Source of the DNA: Paraglaciecola sp. MB-3u-78
Lineage (GTDB): Bacteria; Pseudomonadota; Gammaproteobacteria; Enterobacterales; Alteromonadaceae
DNA length: 64,000 nt
Assembly (NCBI RefSeq): GCF_002835935.1
Contig: NZ_PJCF01000013.1
Location: forward strand, 62,001-126,000
Direction of reading: 5' to 3'
The position numbers and the translations under genes are program-made. Shown here in pieces: positions 4,271-35,005 of this stretch; positions within the stretch are counted from its first letter, which is position 1, and every line of letters starts with the position of its first letter. The notes beneath the pieces are model-generated. The model was not told the origin of the DNA and did no database searches. It worked only from the letters and a program-made list of their open reading frames with translations.

Positions 4271-6133
4271 TTAAATTCTGTCAACGGACTGGCCAGAGAA
4301 AGCGCTTTTAATCGATTGATCCATGCGTTTCTGCGCAAAGGTTTCGCTCAACTTATCGAGTTGTTCGATAGCGGCTTTAATGACGTCTTTGTCTGTGCCC
4401 TTCGCTAACTCGTTAAGTCTTGCGAGTCCCGCTTCAATGGCTTGTATTTCTGATGTCTTAAGTAAGTTTAGGCCGTCAGCAGCTAATGCCCCTTGCAAGT
4501 TTTCATGCACTCTTGCGGCTTCAACTTGTTGTTCTTTAAGCATACGAGCTTGCATATCTTCTTGGGCATTATCCATAGATGCTTTTAGCATAGTGGCAAT
4601 TTCACTGTCTTCTAACCCATATGAAGGCTTAACTTGAATTTCGGCCTGCACTCCTGTGGATTTTTCCATAGCACTCACATTTAACAATCCGTCGGCATCA
4701 ACTTGAAATGTCACCCGAATATGAGCAGCTCCCGCAACCATGGGGGGAATGCCTCGTAATGTGAATTTTGCAAGAGATCGACAATCCTTTACCAACTCAC
4801 GTTCCCCTTGAACCACATGTACCATCATGGCAGTTTGCCCGTCTTTGAAAGTAGTAAACTCTTGCGCTTTAGCAACGGGGATAGTGGTGTTGCGTTGAAT
4901 CACTTTTTCAGTCAAACCGCCCATGGTTTCTATACCCAAAGATAAAGGCAAAACATCTAATAACAGCATGTCGCTATCAGGCTTATTGCCAACCAAAATA
5001 TCGGCTTGGATAGCGGCACCGATAGCCACCACTTTATCAGGATCGATAGAAGTCAGTGGGGTCCGCTCGAAAAAGTCGCCAACTTGTTGACAAACTAAAG
5101 GCACCCGGGTTGAGCCACCTACCATCACTACTTCAATCACTTGTTGCTTTTCTAGCTTGGCGTCTTTTAAAGCTCTGCGACAAGCTCGTAATGTATCCTT
5201 AACCAAGGGGGCAATAAGTTGTTGAAATTTGTCTAGATTGATCATCACTGATTGGTGTTTACCTGTGTCATCTTCAAACTGAACAGTAACCACAGATCCA
5301 TGACTTAATTCTTCTTTGGCCTCTTTCGCTTTGTCTAGCAAAATACGATGTAAGCTTTTAGATAAGGTACCCGTTAATTGACTTTGCTGACGAATAAATT
5401 CCACTAACAAGGCATCAAAATCATCTCCACCCAGTGCAGAGTTTCCACCGGTAGAAAGCACTTCAAATACACCTTTGCTTAAATGCAAAATAGAAATATC
5501 AAAGGTGCCACCGCCTAAATCATAAACGGCTATAATGCCTTCTTGACGAGAATCCAAACCATAAGCGACAGCTGCAGCTGTGGGTTCGTTGAGTAAACGT
5601 AAAACCTTCAAACCGGCAAGTGCCGCGGCATCTTTGGTGCCTTGACGCTGGGCATCATCAAAATAAGCAGGAACGGTGACGACTGCACCTTGCAATTCAT
5701 CACCTAAGGTTGATTCTGCACGCTTTTTAAGCTCGTTTAATATTTTTGCTGATACCTGAACAGGGTTCACCTCGCCCGAAGCAACAGTCATCACTGGCGA
5801 TAGAGAATCTGTAAATAGGTAAGGCAAATTTGGATAAGCGGCTTTGATGTCTTGCACAGAGCGACCTAAAAAACGTTTAACTGACACAATAGTGTTAGAT
5901 GGATCAATACTTGCCAGTTGTTTGGCTTCTTGTCCAATCACTTCTGAGTCGGCTAAATATCTGACTACTGACGGTAATAAATGTCTACCTTGGGCATCAG
6001 GTAACGTGAGTGCTTCACCACTACGCACAGATGCCACTAATGAGTTTGTGGTACCTAAATCGATACCAACCGCTAATTTACGTTGATGAGGGGCGGCGCT
6101 TTGACCGGGTTCAGATATTTGCAAAAATGCCAT
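4271..6133 (-). CDS. hscA: Fe-S cluster assembly chaperone HscA (Hsp70 family)
   Basis: HscA is the specialised Hsp70 that, with co-chaperone HscB, promotes transfer of the nascent cluster from IscU to acceptors. The 620-residue length is normal. The ATPase domain begins with GIDLGTTNS near residues 23-31, with [10 protein letters not shown] near 204-213 and VGGSTRVP near 338-345. The substrate-binding and lid domains follow. It lies between hscB and fdx with short gaps, consistent with one operon. Confidence 0.96.
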
Positions 6134-6170
6134 GGTCTAATTCGTTTCTTTTAGGTTGCAATGAATAAAG

Positions 6171-28582: not shown

Positions 28583-29292
28583 TTTATCACTGTGAATAAC
28601 AATGCCTTGGGTATAGACACGAATGTGCTTTACGCACATTCGGTGGATTAAAAACTAAAAGCACGCTGCGCGCCATCGTCCCGCGCGGCGTCCGCTGATG
28701 GTTTTTGACTTGAATCCCTTCAAGCCAGTTACTTTTTTTATAAAGTACGTCCTGTACTTTACCTTTCAGGCCAGCTAAAGCTGTTCCATACTTATCCTGT
28801 AAATATGGTCAACAGCAAAAAATAAGTAACCAAAAAATGCCGCCGCTAGTAAAGTTTTTAACCGCATAAAACTTTAAAGGCGGAAGAGCAGTGGCGGCTT
28901 TACCAATGATGAACATCGGTAAAGCCGATTATTATTAAACAGTCACTATAGTGACTGATGAGATGGACGCTCCCTAATACGGCGTTTATATAATATATTT
29001 AAACCAATATAATCAAGGGTTTAATGTTATTTATTTTATGGTTTTATTTGTAGCGCATTTGTAACAGCGTGAATGTGTTCTGAAAACTGCCTTTACGTTT
29101 GCAATACAACGTGTATGGGTTAGGTGCAAGCAATGTACGGCTTGTTGAACGCTTAAACTTACCATTGAGGTTAATCAATATTGCTTTGTTAAACCAATGA
29201 CAGTTAACTCAAGCTTGAATATTCTAATATAAATATTGATTCGACAAAGCGATAGATTGACGAGTGCGTTTTGTACATTGTATGTCTTCAAA
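28583..29292. other. Gene-free stretch at the left margin of the accessory region
   Basis: About 700 bases without a supportable gene. It holds a hairpin with arms CGAATGTGC/GCACATTCG near 28620-28642 and an 18-base perfect palindrome CAGTCACTATAGTGACTG at 28940-28957. Short GC-rich patches contrast with AT-rich surroundings, as expected of decayed mobile DNA. Confidence 0.5.
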
Positions 29293-29450
29293 GTGCCATA
29301 AGCCGCCGTTGAACTTCTGGTCAATCAATTTCACTGACCCTATCGATTTTCAACGACCCCGCAGGTCTTTCAGGTCTTTTAGCCTATTCGAGGAATTGAA
29401 CAAGAGTATTGTGAAGCAAGCAACTTGCCCCCTTTTTTTTGACCCCTTTT
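29293..29450 (+). repeat. Long inverted repeat, copy A
   Basis: The segment starting GTGCCATAAGCCGCCGTTGA and ending GACCCCTTTT is the reverse complement of 39896-40039. The first 134 bases show no difference by eye. Copy A has an extra 14 bases (GCCCCCTTTTTTTT, 29427-29440) just before the end, which look like a worn duplicate of the terminal GACCCCTTTT. Its edge cuts an integrase reading frame. Confidence 0.9.
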
Positions 29451-29687
29451 CTTTTTATTGCGAGCAATCTTAACGGCACTCCATGATTTGGTCTGCACCA
29501 GAGACAAAAAGTAAGCCTTAAGCTGTGCGGCAGTTAATGTATCAGGGCAGGTATCAAAAAAGACCGATACTTGTCGAATACAGCGACTATACATGTCGAT
29601 GGTTTTGGGACTTTTACCTTGCAAGGTGAGTTCATTTAGATATGCTTGGTAGAATTGATTAAAACGGGTTTGGTCGTTGATGTTCAT
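29451..29687 (-). pseudogene. N-terminal stump of a tyrosine-type integrase
   Basis: From ATG at 29687, preceded by AAGGAG, about 79 codons encode the N-terminal core-binding domain of a phage/IS91-associated-type integrase (NELTLQGKSPKTIDMYSRCI, then LKAYFLSLV). The frame meets repeat copy A at 29450, after which it reads repeat-derived residues to a stop at 29379. The catalytic domain is missing and is not found on the far side of the repeat. It is therefore a truncated, non-functional remnant. Confidence 0.8.
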
Positions 29688-30033
29688 AACAATACTCCTT
29701 AAGGCACCTCCAATATTGAAGGGTATAAGTAGTACAGACGATCTTTGCTTTTTCTGCCGCTCAGCGGCTTCGTTCAACAAAAACATCATGGTGGGAATTT
29801 TACTCGCTGATAAAGCGCTCCTAAAATCCCCATATGTTAAGCGTTAATGTCCGCTTTCAAATTTTCACACTCAACTTTTAGCTGCAAATGCAAGTGTGCT
29901 TTGCTCATTTTAGATTTATAAAAAATCACTAAAAACGTCCGGTTTGTTCATTCTTGCCCTTTTGTTTGTGAGCCAGAATACTAATTTAGTAGCAACAATT
30001 AGTATGATAGAAGAAAACGCCAATGGCACCTTT

Positions 30034-30068
30034 TGGCACCTATGCACAGAAGCTAACTATGTATAGTT
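30034..30068 (+). repeat. RIT left terminal inverted repeat
   Basis: Starts TGGCACCTATGCACAGAAGC and ends AACTATGTATAGTT. It is the exact reverse complement of 33469-33503. The inner end contains its own palindrome AACTAT-GT-ATAGTT. Confidence 0.95.
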
Positions 30069-30190
30069 GTTGTTTTTGAAAATCCAAGACTCTCTATTCT
30101 ATTGGGCTTCAGGCAAGGCCATGACCCATTAACTTGACATAGTTTTACCCGTATTCTGAAGTGGTAATCCACCCACCTCAGGAGACTGAA

Positions 30191-31432
30191 ATGAACCCCA
30201 ACTATCACTCAACCACTTGGCTTCTTGAAAGCCAACTGGCGGCATACGTTGACGCTTTCAAGCGTCGCTTTACGGAAGGTCGCTACGTCCCTACAACCGT
30301 TGACAATTACTTAGCCAGCATTGCCCACTTCGCTCACTGGTTAACTCAATCTGGAATCGATATTCATGGAATCGATGAACAAATAGTTCATCAGTTTCTT
30401 TATGAGCACCTGCCGCATTGCGACTGCGCAAGTCGGGTATACCGTGTTCGCAGAACATTACAAACTGCACTCAACCATCTTCTCAGCGTCCTACGCGCAA
30501 ATGCAGTCATCGAAAAGCCGGCAATTGGCATGACGCCAGCAGATGAGGAATTACGCCGCTTCGATATGTATATGAGCCATGCTCGAGGGCTTGCGCCAAG
30601 TACGTGCCGACAGCGCCTTCGAGTCATTGCGCGTCTGCTGCTTGATAAATTCGCAAATAACACTGTGATAATTTCCGCGATGAATCCCGATGATGTGCGC
30701 AAGTTTGTCGCGAAGCAGAGCGAGTTGTGCAGCACCCCACTCAGTATTACTCCCACCATCTCGGCATTGAGTGGGTATTTTCGCTATCGCGCTACGCAAG
30801 GCGATCCAGTCCATCATCTAACTGGGGTTCTATGCCGCCCAGCTAAGTGGCAACTTGCTTCGTTGCCAAAGACGCTCAATAGCGTCGAGATCGAATGTTT
30901 GATTGGGTCACTTGAGCATGACGGCCCATCTGCACGCAGAGCTGCGGCCATCGTGCATTGTGCGTTGGGTCTTGGGCTGCGAAGTGGCGAAATAGCCAAT
31001 CTCGGGCTAGATGATATCGACTGGCGTGCTGCCACCATTGCACTGCGAAGAACCAAGGGTTGCCGCGAAGATGTCATGCCTTTACCTGCAGCGATAGGTC
31101 GCGCCATTGCCGACTACCTAAGACTTGAACGACCACAAACCTCCAATCGTGCTGTTTTTGTGCGCAACATCGCTCCGCGCGATCAGGCAATTAGTCATCA
31201 TCTAATCAGTAAAACAATACGACAGGCGTTTGCGCGAGCTGGTCTGCCGCACACACGGCCATACCTTCTGAGACACACGATGGCAAATCGTTTGCTCGAA
31301 GGTGGTAGTTCGCTCAAGGAAGTAGCGGATGTTCTGCGACATCGCTCGCTGAATACAACGATGATTTACGCCAAGCTCGACAGTAGAAATCTCGCTGCGG
31401 TCGCGCTACCTTGGCCAGGGAGCGCATTATGA
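30191..31432 (+). CDS. Tyrosine recombinase, first of the RIT trio (RitA position)
   Basis: About 413 residues from ATG at 30191, preceded by GGAG; a GTG 10 codons earlier is less likely. The N-terminal core-binding region contains TVDNYLASIAHFAHWL. The catalytic part shows the first Arg in GLGLRSGEIANL, then YLLRHTMANRL where the usual box-II His (HxLRH) is Tyr, then RHRSLNTTMIYAKLD with the nucleophile Tyr. The stop overlaps the next gene's start (ATGA), so the trio is translationally coupled. Sites and directionality are unknown. Confidence 0.9.
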   Translation: MNPNYHSTTWLLESQLAAYVDAFKRRFTEGRYVPTTVDNYLASIAHFAHWLTQSGIDIHGIDEQIVHQFLYEHLPHCDCASRVYRVRRTLQTALNHLLSVLRANAVIEKPAIGMTPADEELRRFDMYMSHARGLAPSTCRQRLRVIARLLLDKFANNTVIISAMNPDDVRKFVAKQSELCSTPLSITPTISALSGYFRYRATQGDPVHHLTGVLCRPAKWQLASLPKTLNSVEIECLIGSLEHDGPSARRAAAIVHCALGLGLRSGEIANLGLDDIDWRAATIALRRTKGCREDVMPLPAAIGRAIADYLRLERPQTSNRAVFVRNIAPRDQAISHHLISKTIRQAFARAGLPHTRPYLLRHTMANRLLEGGSSLKEVADVLRHRSLNTTMIYAKLDSRNLAAVALPWPGSAL

Positions 31433-32409
31433 TTACCCACATTACGATGCAAATGCACGCAACCAATTACCTTGAAGAACGTCGCCGGCTTGGTTTTGAT
31501 CTGCGCTCGGTAGGCTATTCTGTCAATAGTTTTGCAGGCTATGTTGACTCTCTTAATTTAGAGGGGCCACTGACCATCGAGGTCATGACCGCTTGGGCAC
31601 AGTGCGACAAAGGAAATAGCGGCAATCCCAAGACATGGGCGCGGCGCCTGGGCAAGTTACGTCCATTTACCCGTTACCTGCAACAATTTGAACCGCTTAC
31701 AGAAGTGCCTAACGACTTCACCTTTGGCCAAACCGGGCAGAGGCCAGCACCACATATCTATATTGAGCAGGAAGTCATCGAATTGCTGGCTGCAGCACGT
31801 AGTCTCGGCCCGTTCCCTGGATTACGAGGTGCAACCTACGAAACACTGTTTGGCTTAATGGCTTCGACAGGACTACGTGTTTCAGAAGCAGTAAATTTAC
31901 TGGAGACAGATGTTGACCTGAAGGCGGGTATGCTGATTATCCGGATGACCAAGTTCGCCAAATCACGCTATGTGCCGATGCACCCGAGCGTGGTCAACGT
32001 ACTCAGACGTTATCAATCCTTACGCAATTTACACATTGAATTTACCGAAGAAATGCCTTTCTTTGTGGGCACTCGCGGTCGTCGTAAAGGTCATTGTTTG
32101 GGATTGCGCCAGGTACATAGAGTCTTTGCGGGCTTGCGCGATCAATTAAAATGGCTCAATCGCGGCACTAACGATGCCCCTCGCATTCACGACCTGCGAC
32201 ACACATTTATCGTTAATCGCGTGATGCTTTGGCATTCTCAGGGCGTGAATGTCGATCAGCAGATGCTGGCATTGTCCACATATGTGGGGCACGCAAAGGT
32301 AACCAATACCTATTGGTATCTCAGCGGTGTACCGCAACTCATGACCGTGGTGGCAAATAAATTTGAAGCGTTTACGCAAATGCAGGGAGGTGAGCCATGT
32401 CTGAAATAA
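31429..32409 (+). CDS. Tyrosine recombinase, second of the RIT trio (RitB position)
   Basis: 326 residues from ATG at 31429, which shares ATGA with the preceding stop and has GGGAGCG upstream. Catalytic residues are GLRVSEAVNL (Arg I), HDLRHTF (box II, His and Arg kept), GHAKVTNTYWYLS (box II His and Tyr). The region between box motifs is longer than in XerC/D (LWHSQGVNVDQQMLALSTYVGH). It overlaps the third gene by 13 bases. Confidence 0.92.
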   Translation: MITHITMQMHATNYLEERRRLGFDLRSVGYSVNSFAGYVDSLNLEGPLTIEVMTAWAQCDKGNSGNPKTWARRLGKLRPFTRYLQQFEPLTEVPNDFTFGQTGQRPAPHIYIEQEVIELLAAARSLGPFPGLRGATYETLFGLMASTGLRVSEAVNLLETDVDLKAGMLIIRMTKFAKSRYVPMHPSVVNVLRRYQSLRNLHIEFTEEMPFFVGTRGRRKGHCLGLRQVHRVFAGLRDQLKWLNRGTNDAPRIHDLRHTFIVNRVMLWHSQGVNVDQQMLALSTYVGHAKVTNTYWYLSGVPQLMTVVANKFEAFTQMQGGEPCLK

Positions 32410-33413
32410 TAGCGCCACGCTCTGTATCATTTGCATCCTTGATTCAGCAATTTTTTACCGAGTACCTGGTAAAACAGCGTGCAGTGAGTCCACGTACTAT
32501 TGCTTCTTACCGGGATGCGATGATGTTGTTTCTGGATTTCGCGCATGAACGTTTGGGCAAGTCTCCGACAGCACTTAGCCTGTCGGACTTTGATCCGGAT
32601 TTGATTCTGGCATTTCTGGATCACTTGGAAATTGACCGACACAATTCGGTTCGTAGTCGAAACCTCCGGCTGACCGCGTTACGTTCATTCCTGAAATTCG
32701 CGGCACGGCGTGATGTATCCTCTTTCTACTTCATCGAGAGTGCGCTGGGTGTACCGATGAAACGTTTTGAACGACCGATGCTTGGATTTCTGTCGCGCGA
32801 GGAGATGTTGGCAGTGCTGGGTCAGCCAGGCGATACATGGACATCCAAGCGTGACCATTTGTTGTTGACTTTGCTATACAACACCGGAGCGAGAGTCTCG
32901 GAAATTATCGGCATACGTGTCTGTGATGTTGTTTTGGATGTAGCAGCCTGTGTACACCTACTCGGCAAGGGACGTAAGCAACGCTCAACACCTTTGTGGA
33001 AAAGCACTGTTCAGGAAATTCGGGCTTGGCTTAAATACAACCCAACGTTTGGGAGGGATGCTGCCCTGCTGCCAAATCGTGCTGGACACGCAATGACACG
33101 CGGTAACGTATCGCAACGCCTCAATATCGCAGTAGTCAAGGCGACCGAGAAATTCAGCAGCTTATCCAAACGAAGTATTTCGCCGCACACAATTCGGCAT
33201 ACGACTGCAATGCATTTACTGCAATCAGGTGTCGATTTTAGTGTGATTGCGTTATGGCTCGGGCATGAAAGCATGATCACCACCCATCGATACGTAGAGG
33301 CAAACTTGGAGATGAAAACGAAGGCGCTGGCAAAGCTTCAAGAGCCCGATACAAAAATGCATCTCTATCATCCCGCAGATGACGAACTGATGCAGTTCCT
33401 GCAGTCGCTGTAA
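32397..33413 (+). CDS. Tyrosine recombinase, third of the RIT trio (RitC position)
   Basis: 338 residues, ATG at 32397 preceded by GGGAGGTGAG. It is the most XerC-like of the three: SPRTIASYRDAMMLFLDF in the N-terminal domain, GARVSEIIGIRV (Arg I), HTIRHTTAMHLL (box II), GHESMITTHRYVE (His and nucleophile Tyr). All catalytic residues appear intact. It ends 55 bases before the right terminal repeat. Confidence 0.93.
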   Translation: MSEIIAPRSVSFASLIQQFFTEYLVKQRAVSPRTIASYRDAMMLFLDFAHERLGKSPTALSLSDFDPDLILAFLDHLEIDRHNSVRSRNLRLTALRSFLKFAARRDVSSFYFIESALGVPMKRFERPMLGFLSREEMLAVLGQPGDTWTSKRDHLLLTLLYNTGARVSEIIGIRVCDVVLDVAACVHLLGKGRKQRSTPLWKSTVQEIRAWLKYNPTFGRDAALLPNRAGHAMTRGNVSQRLNIAVVKATEKFSSLSKRSISPHTIRHTTAMHLLQSGVDFSVIALWLGHESMITTHRYVEANLEMKTKALAKLQEPDTKMHLYHPADDELMQFLQSL

Positions 33414-33468
33414 AATTATGTACAGTTCGCTACCAGCAGTGTCTAGTAGCGTATGGGGTGACGGGCAA

Positions 33469-33503
33469 AACTATACATAGTTAGCTTCTGTGCATAGGTG
33501 CCA
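33469..33503 (-). repeat. RIT right terminal inverted repeat
   Basis: Exact 35-base reverse complement of 30034-30068. It begins AACTATACATAGTT on the top strand and ends CATAGGTGCCA, running directly into the dyad at 33498-33529. Confidence 0.95.
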
Positions 33504-33529
33504 CTATGTACAGCTATACATAGTGGCAC
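33498..33529. repeat. Core-site-like dyad at the right RIT end
   Basis: GTGCCACTATGTA (33498-33510) and TACATAGTGGCAC (33517-33529) are perfect inverted arms of 13 bases around a 6-base centre (CAGCTA). This is the geometry of a tyrosine recombinase crossover site. The arms share ACTATGTA with the inner part of the terminal repeats. No equivalent full dyad lies at the left end. Confidence 0.85.
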
Positions 33530-34075
33530 ATGGCCGACGGATAGAGGAAGTTGATGTTGAAGGGTTTTAGCAGCAAAATAATTCTTCGTTCGTATGTCTG
33601 CTTTGTCGGAAAACTTGCCGTTAGCAAAATGGCGACTGACGACCCAGCCTGTGTGAAAACTATCAGACTATATTGAGCGCAAAATCATCATACGATTAAT
33701 CAAACTTGACTGACGGCAATGAGCGAGCACCGGACAGTCAGCACTTTCAATACGTTGCACACTGTCAGATTTTTTTACACAATGTAGACGCATGGATATT
33801 TCGTCGAAATATCGGTGCTAAGTCGCTGATTGAGTTCACTAGTGTCACTAGTCAGCATGGGGGGATGTGCTTTATTTTAATGCTAGTGGTAGCAGAATAA
33901 ACGGAGTTCGATTTTGGGCTTTCTGAGTGGGTTATGCACCTGCAGATGGGTATTATATGTCAGCTTTACTTACAGTTAGGCATTTCAAAATATAAATAGT
34001 TTATATATATCAATAGAATAATTTTTGGCTTGTAATATGCATTAGTAGTTTGAATTCACTATAAACGGAAATAAG
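33530..34075. other. Gene-free stretch right of the RIT element
   Basis: About 550 bases with no supportable gene. One 64-codon frame (33706-33900) has no plausible ribosome-binding site, domain or composition of a real protein. Sequence becomes AT-rich toward 34 kb, where the promoter of the next small gene should lie. Confidence 0.5.
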
Positions 34076-34243
34076 ATGAAAATAATAACTCGTTTCAATA
34101 TAGCAGCGTTGCTCACATTTTTATATTCCAGTGTTGCTTTTGCTGGTACTGCTGTTACTCCTGTTCCAGAACCCAGTATTACGGCCTTAATTGGACTTGG
34201 CGTCGCTATGGTTTATTTTATTTCTAAAGGGAGGAAAAAATAG
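34076..34243 (+). CDS. 55-residue PEP-CTERM microprotein
   Basis: The product consists of a signal peptide (MKIITRFNIAALLTFLYS, cleavage probably after AFA) and, after only a few residues, a complete PEP-CTERM sorting signal: TPVPEPSITALIGLG near residues 28-42, a hydrophobic helix, then basic SKGRKK. PEP-CTERM signals are processed by exosortases in exopolysaccharide-making Gram-negatives. With about five residues between cleavage site and motif there is almost no mature domain. Its stop is 3 bases before the next gene's start, and its last codons carry that gene's GGGAGG, suggesting coupled translation. It is too short for most gene finders. Confidence 0.75.
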   Translation: MKIITRFNIAALLTFLYSSVAFAGTAVTPVPEPSITALIGLGVAMVYFISKGRKK

Positions 34244-34246
34244 ATT

Positions 34247-35005
34247 TTGACGCTATTTGATATTTATATTGTTGTCATTTTGATGGTGATGTTTTGGGAA
34301 TATAAACGTCCTAAAACATCTTTAAATCGAATTCAACATGTCTATTTCGCTAATATTTTGACTTATATTTTAGGTTCATTTCTATTTTATGGTTTGAATT
34401 ACATTGTATCCATTGAAGCAATTTTTTCATCTCAGATTATTACTCTTACTTTACCAAACGGCCTTAAAAATGGATTGATGCTAATCATGCAGTTTTTATT
34501 GATTGACTTGATTTATTATACTAAACATCGCCTTGATCATTATTTTAAACCTCTGTGGCGTTTACATTTGGTGCATCATTCAGACCTTCAGGTCGATGTA
34601 TCGACAAGTTTTCGACATCACCCTGTCGAAGTTATTAGTCATTATATAATAGTGATGTGTGTTGCTTGGTTATGCGGAGTGCCTAATAGCCTTTTGGTGC
34701 TATATGCCTTTATATCTTCATTAGTTCAGCCACTGCACCATGCTAATTTAGCTATTCCTGAACGTTTACTAGACTACTTGTCGTTTATTGTCATTACGCC
34801 TGCCACACATAAAGTTCATCACAGTTCAGATAAAACCTTTACCAATAGCAATTATGGAAACTTATTTCCGTTTTGGGATCGGATATTCCGCACTTATCAA
34901 ACGGCTCCGGAATTAGCTGATTTTGGATTGACATACTTTAGGGACAAAAAAGAAGGAAATTTTTCGAGTTTGTTAACACAACCTTTTAGATATTCTAAAA
35001 AGTGA
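34247..35005 (+). CDS. Fatty acid hydroxylase / sterol desaturase superfamily membrane enzyme
   Basis: 252 residues with four or so transmembrane segments and the di-iron histidine clusters of the family: HRLDH near residue 93, HLVHHSD near 106, SFRHH near 121, HHANL near 164 and HKVHHS near 189. The family hydroxylates or desaturates lipid chains at the membrane; the substrate here is unknown. TTG at 34247 is used as start because GGGAGG lies 12 bases upstream within the preceding microprotein gene. It forms a two-gene unit with that gene inside the accessory region, and its base use is AT-rich like the flanks. Confidence 0.88.
   Translation: MTLFDIYIVVILMVMFWEYKRPKTSLNRIQHVYFANILTYILGSFLFYGLNYIVSIEAIFSSQIITLTLPNGLKNGLMLIMQFLLIDLIYYTKHRLDHYFKPLWRLHLVHHSDLQVDVSTSFRHHPVEVISHYIIVMCVAWLCGVPNSLLVLYAFISSLVQPLHHANLAIPERLLDYLSFIVITPATHKVHHSSDKTFTNSNYGNLFPFWDRIFRTYQTAPELADFGLTYFRDKKEGNFSSLLTQPFRYSKK

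Follow-up and report, generated by a model that had tools for sequence, protein, structure and literature searches.

A palindromic 20-bp linker found at either end of RIT elements, and a probable crossover within a 6-bp hexamer

Introduction

The RIT elements, named in work cited from 2009, are a little-understood group of transposons. Those of Cupriavidus metallidurans CH34 and pHG1 carry three tyrosine recombinase genes (A, B and C) in about 3.5 kb, and their long terminal inverted repeats (TIRs) overlap a palindrome at the ends (PMC3414803). The same 2012 paper reports gene overlaps of 4–8 bp, variable ends, and repeats that are unlike the usual sites; in its accessible sections, the palindrome and the variability of the ends are left unexplained. 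RitA was described as having two sequential core-binding domains (accessible part of PMC8138268). Table 1 of a 2023 paper lists target specificity, the empty site and movement of RITs as not tested (PMC10214605, accessible part).

Similar features are known for the strand-biased circularizing integrative elements (SEs), Tn554 and the GInts, which, like the RITs examined here, have several tyrosine recombinases, a 6-bp spacer adjoining imperfect inverted repeats at the ends, and possibly a polar placement of the hexamer (PMC10214605, accessible part). The gene contents are different: the SEs carry intA-tfp-intB-srap and the GInts carry four gin genes according to the same source, whereas the element described below has three recombinases only, with neither the non-catalytic core-binding protein nor the small fourth protein of those four-gene systems. 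A shared 20-bp linker that alternates between the two ends is not described for SEs, Tn554 or GInts in the accessible part of PMC10214605. Nor was it found in the parts of the RIT literature covered by our search, which ran without Ricker et al. (2013, Plasmid 70:226). RITs and their overlapping palindrome are already in print (PMC3414803, accessible part), and what appears to be new is the reading of the palindrome as a linker that is able to sit at either end. Here, an alternating linker, a 6-bp crossover and a target motif are proposed where that account stops. The linker points to where and how these elements join the host DNA.

Results and discussion

The RIT element in the window

The window, a stretch of 64,000 nucleotides from Paraglaciecola sp. 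MB-3u-78, contains an element of 3,470 bp from tip to tip, bounded by a perfect pair of 35-bp TIRs (left, 30034-30068; right, 33469-33503). These sizes agree with those of RITs (about 3.5 kb, with TIRs of about 34 bp). The features are as follows, in window coordinates.

30021..30033, plus strand: left target arm (host DNA), identical at C8
30034..30039, plus strand: left (bare-end) putative crossover hexamer TGGCAC, at once element tip and host target; the C8 stretch, which lacks the element, matches up to 30039 and differs from 30040
30034..30068, plus strand: left TIR, 35 bp, with the hexamer, an arm CTATGCACAG (30040-30049) and a second arm CTATGTATAG (30057-30066); perfect inverted repeat of 33469-33503
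30191..31432, plus strand: ritA, tyrosine recombinase of 413 aa (open frame from 30161; Pfam Phage_integrase; best match the pHG1 A-type, 31.7% identity)
31429..32409, plus strand: ritB, tyrosine recombinase of 326 aa (4-bp overlap with ritA; Pfam Phage_integrase; pHG1 B-type, 32.4% identity)
32397..33413, plus strand: ritC, tyrosine recombinase of 338 aa (13-bp overlap with ritB, depending on the start; Pfam Phage_integrase; pHG1 C-type, 45.3% identity)
33469..33503, minus strand: right TIR, 35 bp, inverted repeat of the left TIR
33498..33503, minus strand: inner tip hexamer H' (GTGCCA on the plus strand), by the model the unused core of this copy
33504..33523, no strand: palindromic 20-bp linker CTATGTACAGCTATACATAG, identical at three RIT copies and of the same design in 43 linkers
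33524..33529, plus strand: outer hexamer H (TGGCAC), which repeats 30034-30039 in the same orientation
33530..33542, plus strand: right target arm (host DNA), the beginning of an interspersed repeat that also has copies without the element

The three genes are adjacent and overlapping, in the order found in RITs, and the overlaps of 4 and 13 bp can be set beside the published 4–8 bp (PMC3414803, accessible part). They fill the element: the only further frame of at least 100 aa inside it is an antisense one of 119 aa. RitA, RitB and RitC are each closest to their own type in pHG1 (32–45% identity), the comparison being with the pHG1 set. Since the products match the phage-integrase family and their best pHG1 matches are of types A, B and C in that order, the element is classified as a RIT (recombinase-in-trio) transposon, in agreement with the first-pass annotation, which had named a RIT with three tyrosine recombinases. 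In an alignment judged by eye, the catalytic residues of tyrosine recombinases (R, H-x-x-R, H and Y) appear to be aligned in RitB and RitC, and RitA appears to have a Tyr in place of the first His. A core-binding domain was found in RitA at residues 122-203 above the Pfam cut-off and a second one, at 22-69, below it. The same genome also contains two RitC-like genes of lower similarity (34 and 38% identity; G000 C18:100-1074 and C34:2184-3035), one of them with an internal stop.

Several features were noted around the element. Two interspersed repeats lie to its right (33530-33640 and 33657-33740), and sequences related to the region 33524-33900 are present in 5 of 22 genomes of the genus, this genome included. 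To its left, a minus-strand frame of 136 aa (29379-29847) matched only the N-terminal part of XerA/integron-type integrases, and a repeat of about 57 bp (29790-29847) occurs in 20 of the 22 genomes, often in several copies close together; we presume from this likeness that the two resemble a decayed integron integrase with attC-like repeats. An Rfam search of 29000-34300 gave nothing at the gathering score.

The dyad and its counterparts in the same genome

At the right end, the dyad GTGCCACTATGTA-CAGCTA-TACATAGTGGCAC occupies 33498-33529 and covers the last 6 bp of the right TIR. Both 13-nt arms are exact, and with up to three mismatches the dyad occurs once in the window and in none of 100 shuffled sequences. 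The 13-6-13 geometry and the overlap with the tip of the terminal repeat, both pointed out earlier, are thus confirmed. The copies of the element, described next, lead to another parse.

Three flanked copies and one contig that consists of the bare element were found in this genome. The flanked copies, near-identical and with differing flanks as expected of a mobile element, lie on contig C2, on contig C78 and at a second place in C2. In the window copy and in the C78 copy (copy 2), the dyad is located outside the right TIR. In copy 3 (C2:226171-229640, minus strand), this dyad instead adjoins the left TIR on its outer side, and it is the right end that is bare. Read along the element, the central 20 bp is CTATGTACAGCTATACATAG in all three, in the same orientation at either end as marked by two positions, and no fourth occurrence with up to three mismatches was found in this genome. 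Because this 20-bp centre is constant, the dyad is better parsed as 6-20-6, namely, the tip hexamer GTGCCA (33498-33503), the linker (33504-33523) and the outer hexamer TGGCAC (33524-33529).

The first-pass annotation had read TGGCACC-TTT outside the left tip as the trace of a dyad whose middle was lost or replaced. This reading does not hold: C8:26066-26264, a stretch without the element, equals window 29841-30039, TGGCACCTTTTGGCAC included, and the two diverge at 30040. The sequence outside the left tip is, on this comparison, host DNA and not the remnant of a dyad. At the right flank, copies of the interspersed repeat that lack the element have TGGCAC at the matching place (L023, L024, L025 and L027) or a hexamer one letter off (L022, L026, L028 and L029). 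A single empty site joining both flanks of the window copy was not found: the left flank matches C8:26066-26264 and the right flank is an interspersed repeat. The window copy has no clean empty site of its own because its two flanks come from two different sequence families, and an exchange between RIT copies might explain such mismatched flanks. The joined flanks of copies 3 and 2 were matched elsewhere mostly in halves. Two longer candidate matches are C6:86616-86703 (bases 59-146 of the copy 3 query, 98%, spanning the hexamer) and G012:C1:4716219-4716309 (bases 56-146 of the copy 2 query, 89%). A search of this genome with the pattern CNGNNNTTGGCACANNGCNG gave three fits, and the reversed-pattern control gave 0.

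Linker side among related RITs

The first set comprised 93 loci, namely, 80 genome loci from a RitC scan (63–86% identical), the three copies of this genome and 10 plasmid loci. A TIR pair was obtained in 59 loci and none in 34; 11 more had an unreadable end, and both ends were readable in 48. Anchoring of the TIR tip also required the second TATG motif, as simpler anchors misplaced the tips of L073, L083 and L126. A linker was scored when at least 6 of the 10 pairs of the 20-bp segment were palindromic and at least 3 of the 6 positions of the outer hexamer were complementary to the tip, criteria that shuffled flanks meet at 0.45% (48,000 trials). Among the 48 elements, the linker was found at the left only in 19, at the right only in 20, at both ends in 2 and at neither in 7. 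Scoring by palindrome alone gave 19, 21, 3 and 5, respectively.

In the second set of 21 loci, 13 had a TIR pair and 8 had none; L207, which duplicates L198, was removed, and L216 and L217 were left out. One linker was found in each of the 13 TIR pairs (11 left and 2 right, the duplicate record counted). Combining the two sets without the duplicate gives 60 elements, in which the linker is confined to the left end in 29, is confined to the right end in 22, lies at both ends in 2 and is at neither in 7 (L045, L086, L092, L093, L102, L104 and L121); these are not 60 independent events, since some loci are related. L073 was scored as left only despite a perfect right-end linker, whose outer hexamer matches poorly. 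The comparison of both ends across many elements, which had been advised for the dyad, thus clarified that the asymmetry is usual and that the side varies. The statement that the dyad is present at only one end is right for the window copy, whose left end has none, and the ends of one copy usually differ; that it belongs to the right end is contradicted by copy 3.

As for the reach of the survey, two family searches gave a match in 5 of 398 and 4 of 394 genomes. No usable TIR was obtained from the pHG1 elements, the viral contigs yielded one locus with no TIR pair, and L037, a close relative (86% RitC identity), is also among the loci without a TIR pair.

Design of the linker, the TIR and the target

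The 43 linkers of the first set have the consensus yTATGnAnAG-cTnTnCATAr, with TATG at positions 2-5 in all 43 and a centre that is largely AGCT (A in 42, G in 35, C in 33 and T in 41 at positions 9-12). The TIR is laid out as H-yTATGcacAG-n6-yTATGnAnAG. It follows from the two consensus sequences that the tip hexamer lies between two similar arms, which are symmetric at a mean of 7.9 of 10 positions. The core sites of tyrosine recombinases, such as those of Xer/dif and phage att, consist of inverted arms around an overlap of 6–8 bp, and the surroundings of the tip hexamer would be as expected of such a core.

The host side has a symmetry of its own. Of 51 targets, 45 have C at -7 and 43 have G at +7; two positions further out, 32 have G at -9 and 35 have C at +9. 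In a 40-target set, which takes in L092 and L104 (both left out of the 51), the information is 1.33 bits at -7 and 1.49 at +7, as compared with means of 0.02 and 0.03 (maxima 0.45 and 0.21) at 21–60 bp from the hexamer. The target arms mirror each other about the centre of the hexamer (the score is 2.0 at offset 0 and does not exceed 0.62 at any other offset between -5 and 5), and they are unlike the YTATG arms of the element. A REP-like hairpin with the hexamer in its loop was also considered as the target and rejected: 304 of 2000 permuted flank sets reached the observed mean pairing. As matched flanks pair no better than permuted ones, we claim a symmetric motif and not a hairpin.

The place of the crossover

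The hexamer varies from one element to another, and its outer copy varies with it: the bare-end and outer hexamers were identical in 36 of 51 elements and differed at 1–3 positions in 15, and the identity ended with the hexamer (adjoining base, 5 of 51 and 9 of 51). In L065, both are AGACAC, and the inner tip is GGGCCC. The mismatches in the 15 differing pairs number 8, 3, 3, 10, 1 and 0 at positions 1 to 6, respectively. This pattern could point to a homology requirement, which we do not claim, since in IS66 targets the mismatches coincide with codon wobble.

Element-free host sites are in accord with this. The flanks of L200, joined by one hexamer, matched six plasmid records, among the matches listed, at 100.0% over 146 bp without gaps; an IS66 transposase is annotated in two of the six, and four are unannotated. 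In all, 40 records matched this query, 24 of them over at least 80% of it. For the other joined flanks, this coverage was reached in 2 of 4 records (L125), 205 of 206 (L123), 3 of 5 (L196) and 3 of 4 (L203). Eight empty-site stretches (L162-L167, L218 and L219; two for L125, four for L123, one for L196 and one for L203) have one hexamer each and no linker. Furthermore, conserved motifs, VALGRKNWLFAGS and DEAQEFRKL among them, are kept in frame when the flanks of L122, L123, L125 and L126 are joined by one hexamer, and in L126 the Arg of the conserved motif is obtained only with the bare hexamer. The possibility that the dyad is simply host DNA was thus pursued at the sites of five other RITs, where one hexamer was found and the linker was absent. 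Since element-free host sites have one hexamer and no linker, the crossover most likely takes place in the 6-bp hexamer. The suggestion that the dyad marks the recombination point is therefore correct in that the dyad belongs to the recombination site, but the crossover apparently falls in the outer hexamers and not in the centre.

A proposed route of integration and the alternatives

Observed in the sequences are the alternating side of the linker, its constancy in the three copies, the single hexamer without a linker at empty sites, and the symmetric target motif. In what follows, we infer a circular form, the order in which strands are exchanged, and the assignment of recombinases to arms. 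RITs would join the host by site-specific recombination with a 6-bp crossover, from a circle in which two inverted cores share the linker; on sequence comparison, we give this reading a probability of about 0.75. Weighing against it are the loci that yielded no TIR pair (34 and 8 in the two sets), the 7 elements without a scored linker, the cases in which linker orientation changes (see below), the mismatched flanks of the window copy, and the four right-flank repeats whose hexamer is one letter off. In the free form, the ends would be joined as right TIR, H', the 20-bp palindromic linker, H and left TIR, so that each hexamer lies between YTATGNANAG-type arms and the linker serves both cores. 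Exchange of one hexamer with a host hexamer would create a bare end (left target arm, H and TIR) and another end with H', the linker, H and the right target arm. The core used would decide which end stays bare: use of the left core would place the linker at the right, as in the window copy and copy 2, and use of the right core would place it at the left, as in copy 3. Run backwards, the same reaction would regenerate the target. Our guess is that RitA, with its reported two core-binding domains, bridges the arms of the linker and the TIR, and that another recombinase reads the target arms. Such a junction would differ from Xer/dif and phage att in that two inverted cores share one palindromic arm pair and in that the target arms are unlike the element arms.

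The linker might also be read in other ways. The 13-6-13 geometry does resemble a tyrosine recombinase core, so that the dyad itself could be the core site, active only at the right end and with the crossover in the central CAGCTA. This is very improbable, since the dyad lies at the left in copy 3 and in 29 of the 60 elements, the empty sites have the hexamer but lack the linker, and the part that matches the target is the hexamer and not the largely AGCT centre of the 43 linkers. A coupling sequence taken from the last host site, as in Tn916-type elements, would likewise lie between the element and the host at one end. It would, however, vary with the flanks, whereas the 43 linkers share one design with an invariant TATG at positions 2-5 and the linker of the window element is identical in three copies with different flanks. 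We hardly credit this reading; judging from these comparisons, it is the hexamer alone that acts as a coupling sequence would.

The two remaining alternatives share much with core choice. In one of them, the linker stays with the target half-site while the body of the element flips in place between the bare and inner tip hexamers, which are inverted repeats, and the alternation arises by inversion. Such inversion would use the same crossover and would flip the orientation of the linker relative to the element, which indeed differs in L197 against L125 and L196, in L072 against L076 and L077, and in L055 against L052, L053 and L057. Choice of the core at integration, by contrast, would keep this orientation, as is seen at the two marker positions in the genome of the window and again in L052 (linker right) and L053 (linker left). 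Inversion is unlikely as the explanation of the alternation; both processes may operate. The other alternative is copy-out/copy-in as proposed for SEs and Tn554, in which one strand is exchanged, the element hexamer is carried along as a fingerprint, and the target hexamer is left at one end. This alternative shares ground with the preferred circle reading, which leaves the route of circle formation unspecified. In three (L123, L196 and L200) of the five elements for which an empty site has been sequenced, the target hexamer equals the bare-end hexamer, in line with the hexamer rule of SEs (PMC10214605, accessible part). On the other side, the hexamer of the relatives of L125 is found at its linker end (both of two empty sites), although the outer hexamer of L196, its sister copy, is the same; L203 favors neither end; GTTCCG, found at one of the four empty sites of L123, agrees with neither hexamer; and no counterpart of the SE genes tfp and srap is seen in the window element. 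Copy-out/copy-in is rather doubtful, and these five elements (three for, L125 against and L203 neutral) suggest a polar placement of the hexamer of the kind reported for SEs.

The circle reading can be extended, tentatively and with rather less than even confidence, to a double attachment site: two inverted, mutually exclusive 6-bp cores around one linker would let either end integrate, the exchange would be polar, with the target hexamer at the bare end and the element hexamer accompanying the linker, and the trio would be needed because the TIR, the linker and the target arms are different binding sites. If true, the alternating linker would explain the variability of RIT ends, place the crossover within 6 bp and give a target motif. 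It would also suggest why three recombinases stay together, indicate which junction should be sought by PCR, and allow RIT ends to be annotated automatically.

Atypical ends

Some loci have unusual ends. L063, L073, L083 and L106 have a linker at each end, or at each end that is visible (in L106, only the left end is readable), and both outer flanks of L063 resemble right target halves. Five contigs of 3,480–3,520 bp from separate assemblies (L043, L079, L087, L088 and L096) break off only a few bases from the tip hexamers, which is expected if the linker side differs among the copies of a genome. In L126 and L213, the TIR arm starts with TAATG instead of YTATG, and the layout of the linker is unchanged. 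Finally, at the right end of L092 (around 6100-6160), two linkers of 20 bp follow each other in the same direction, separated by the hexamer CTACCC, as might be left behind by a second element that had inserted and departed.
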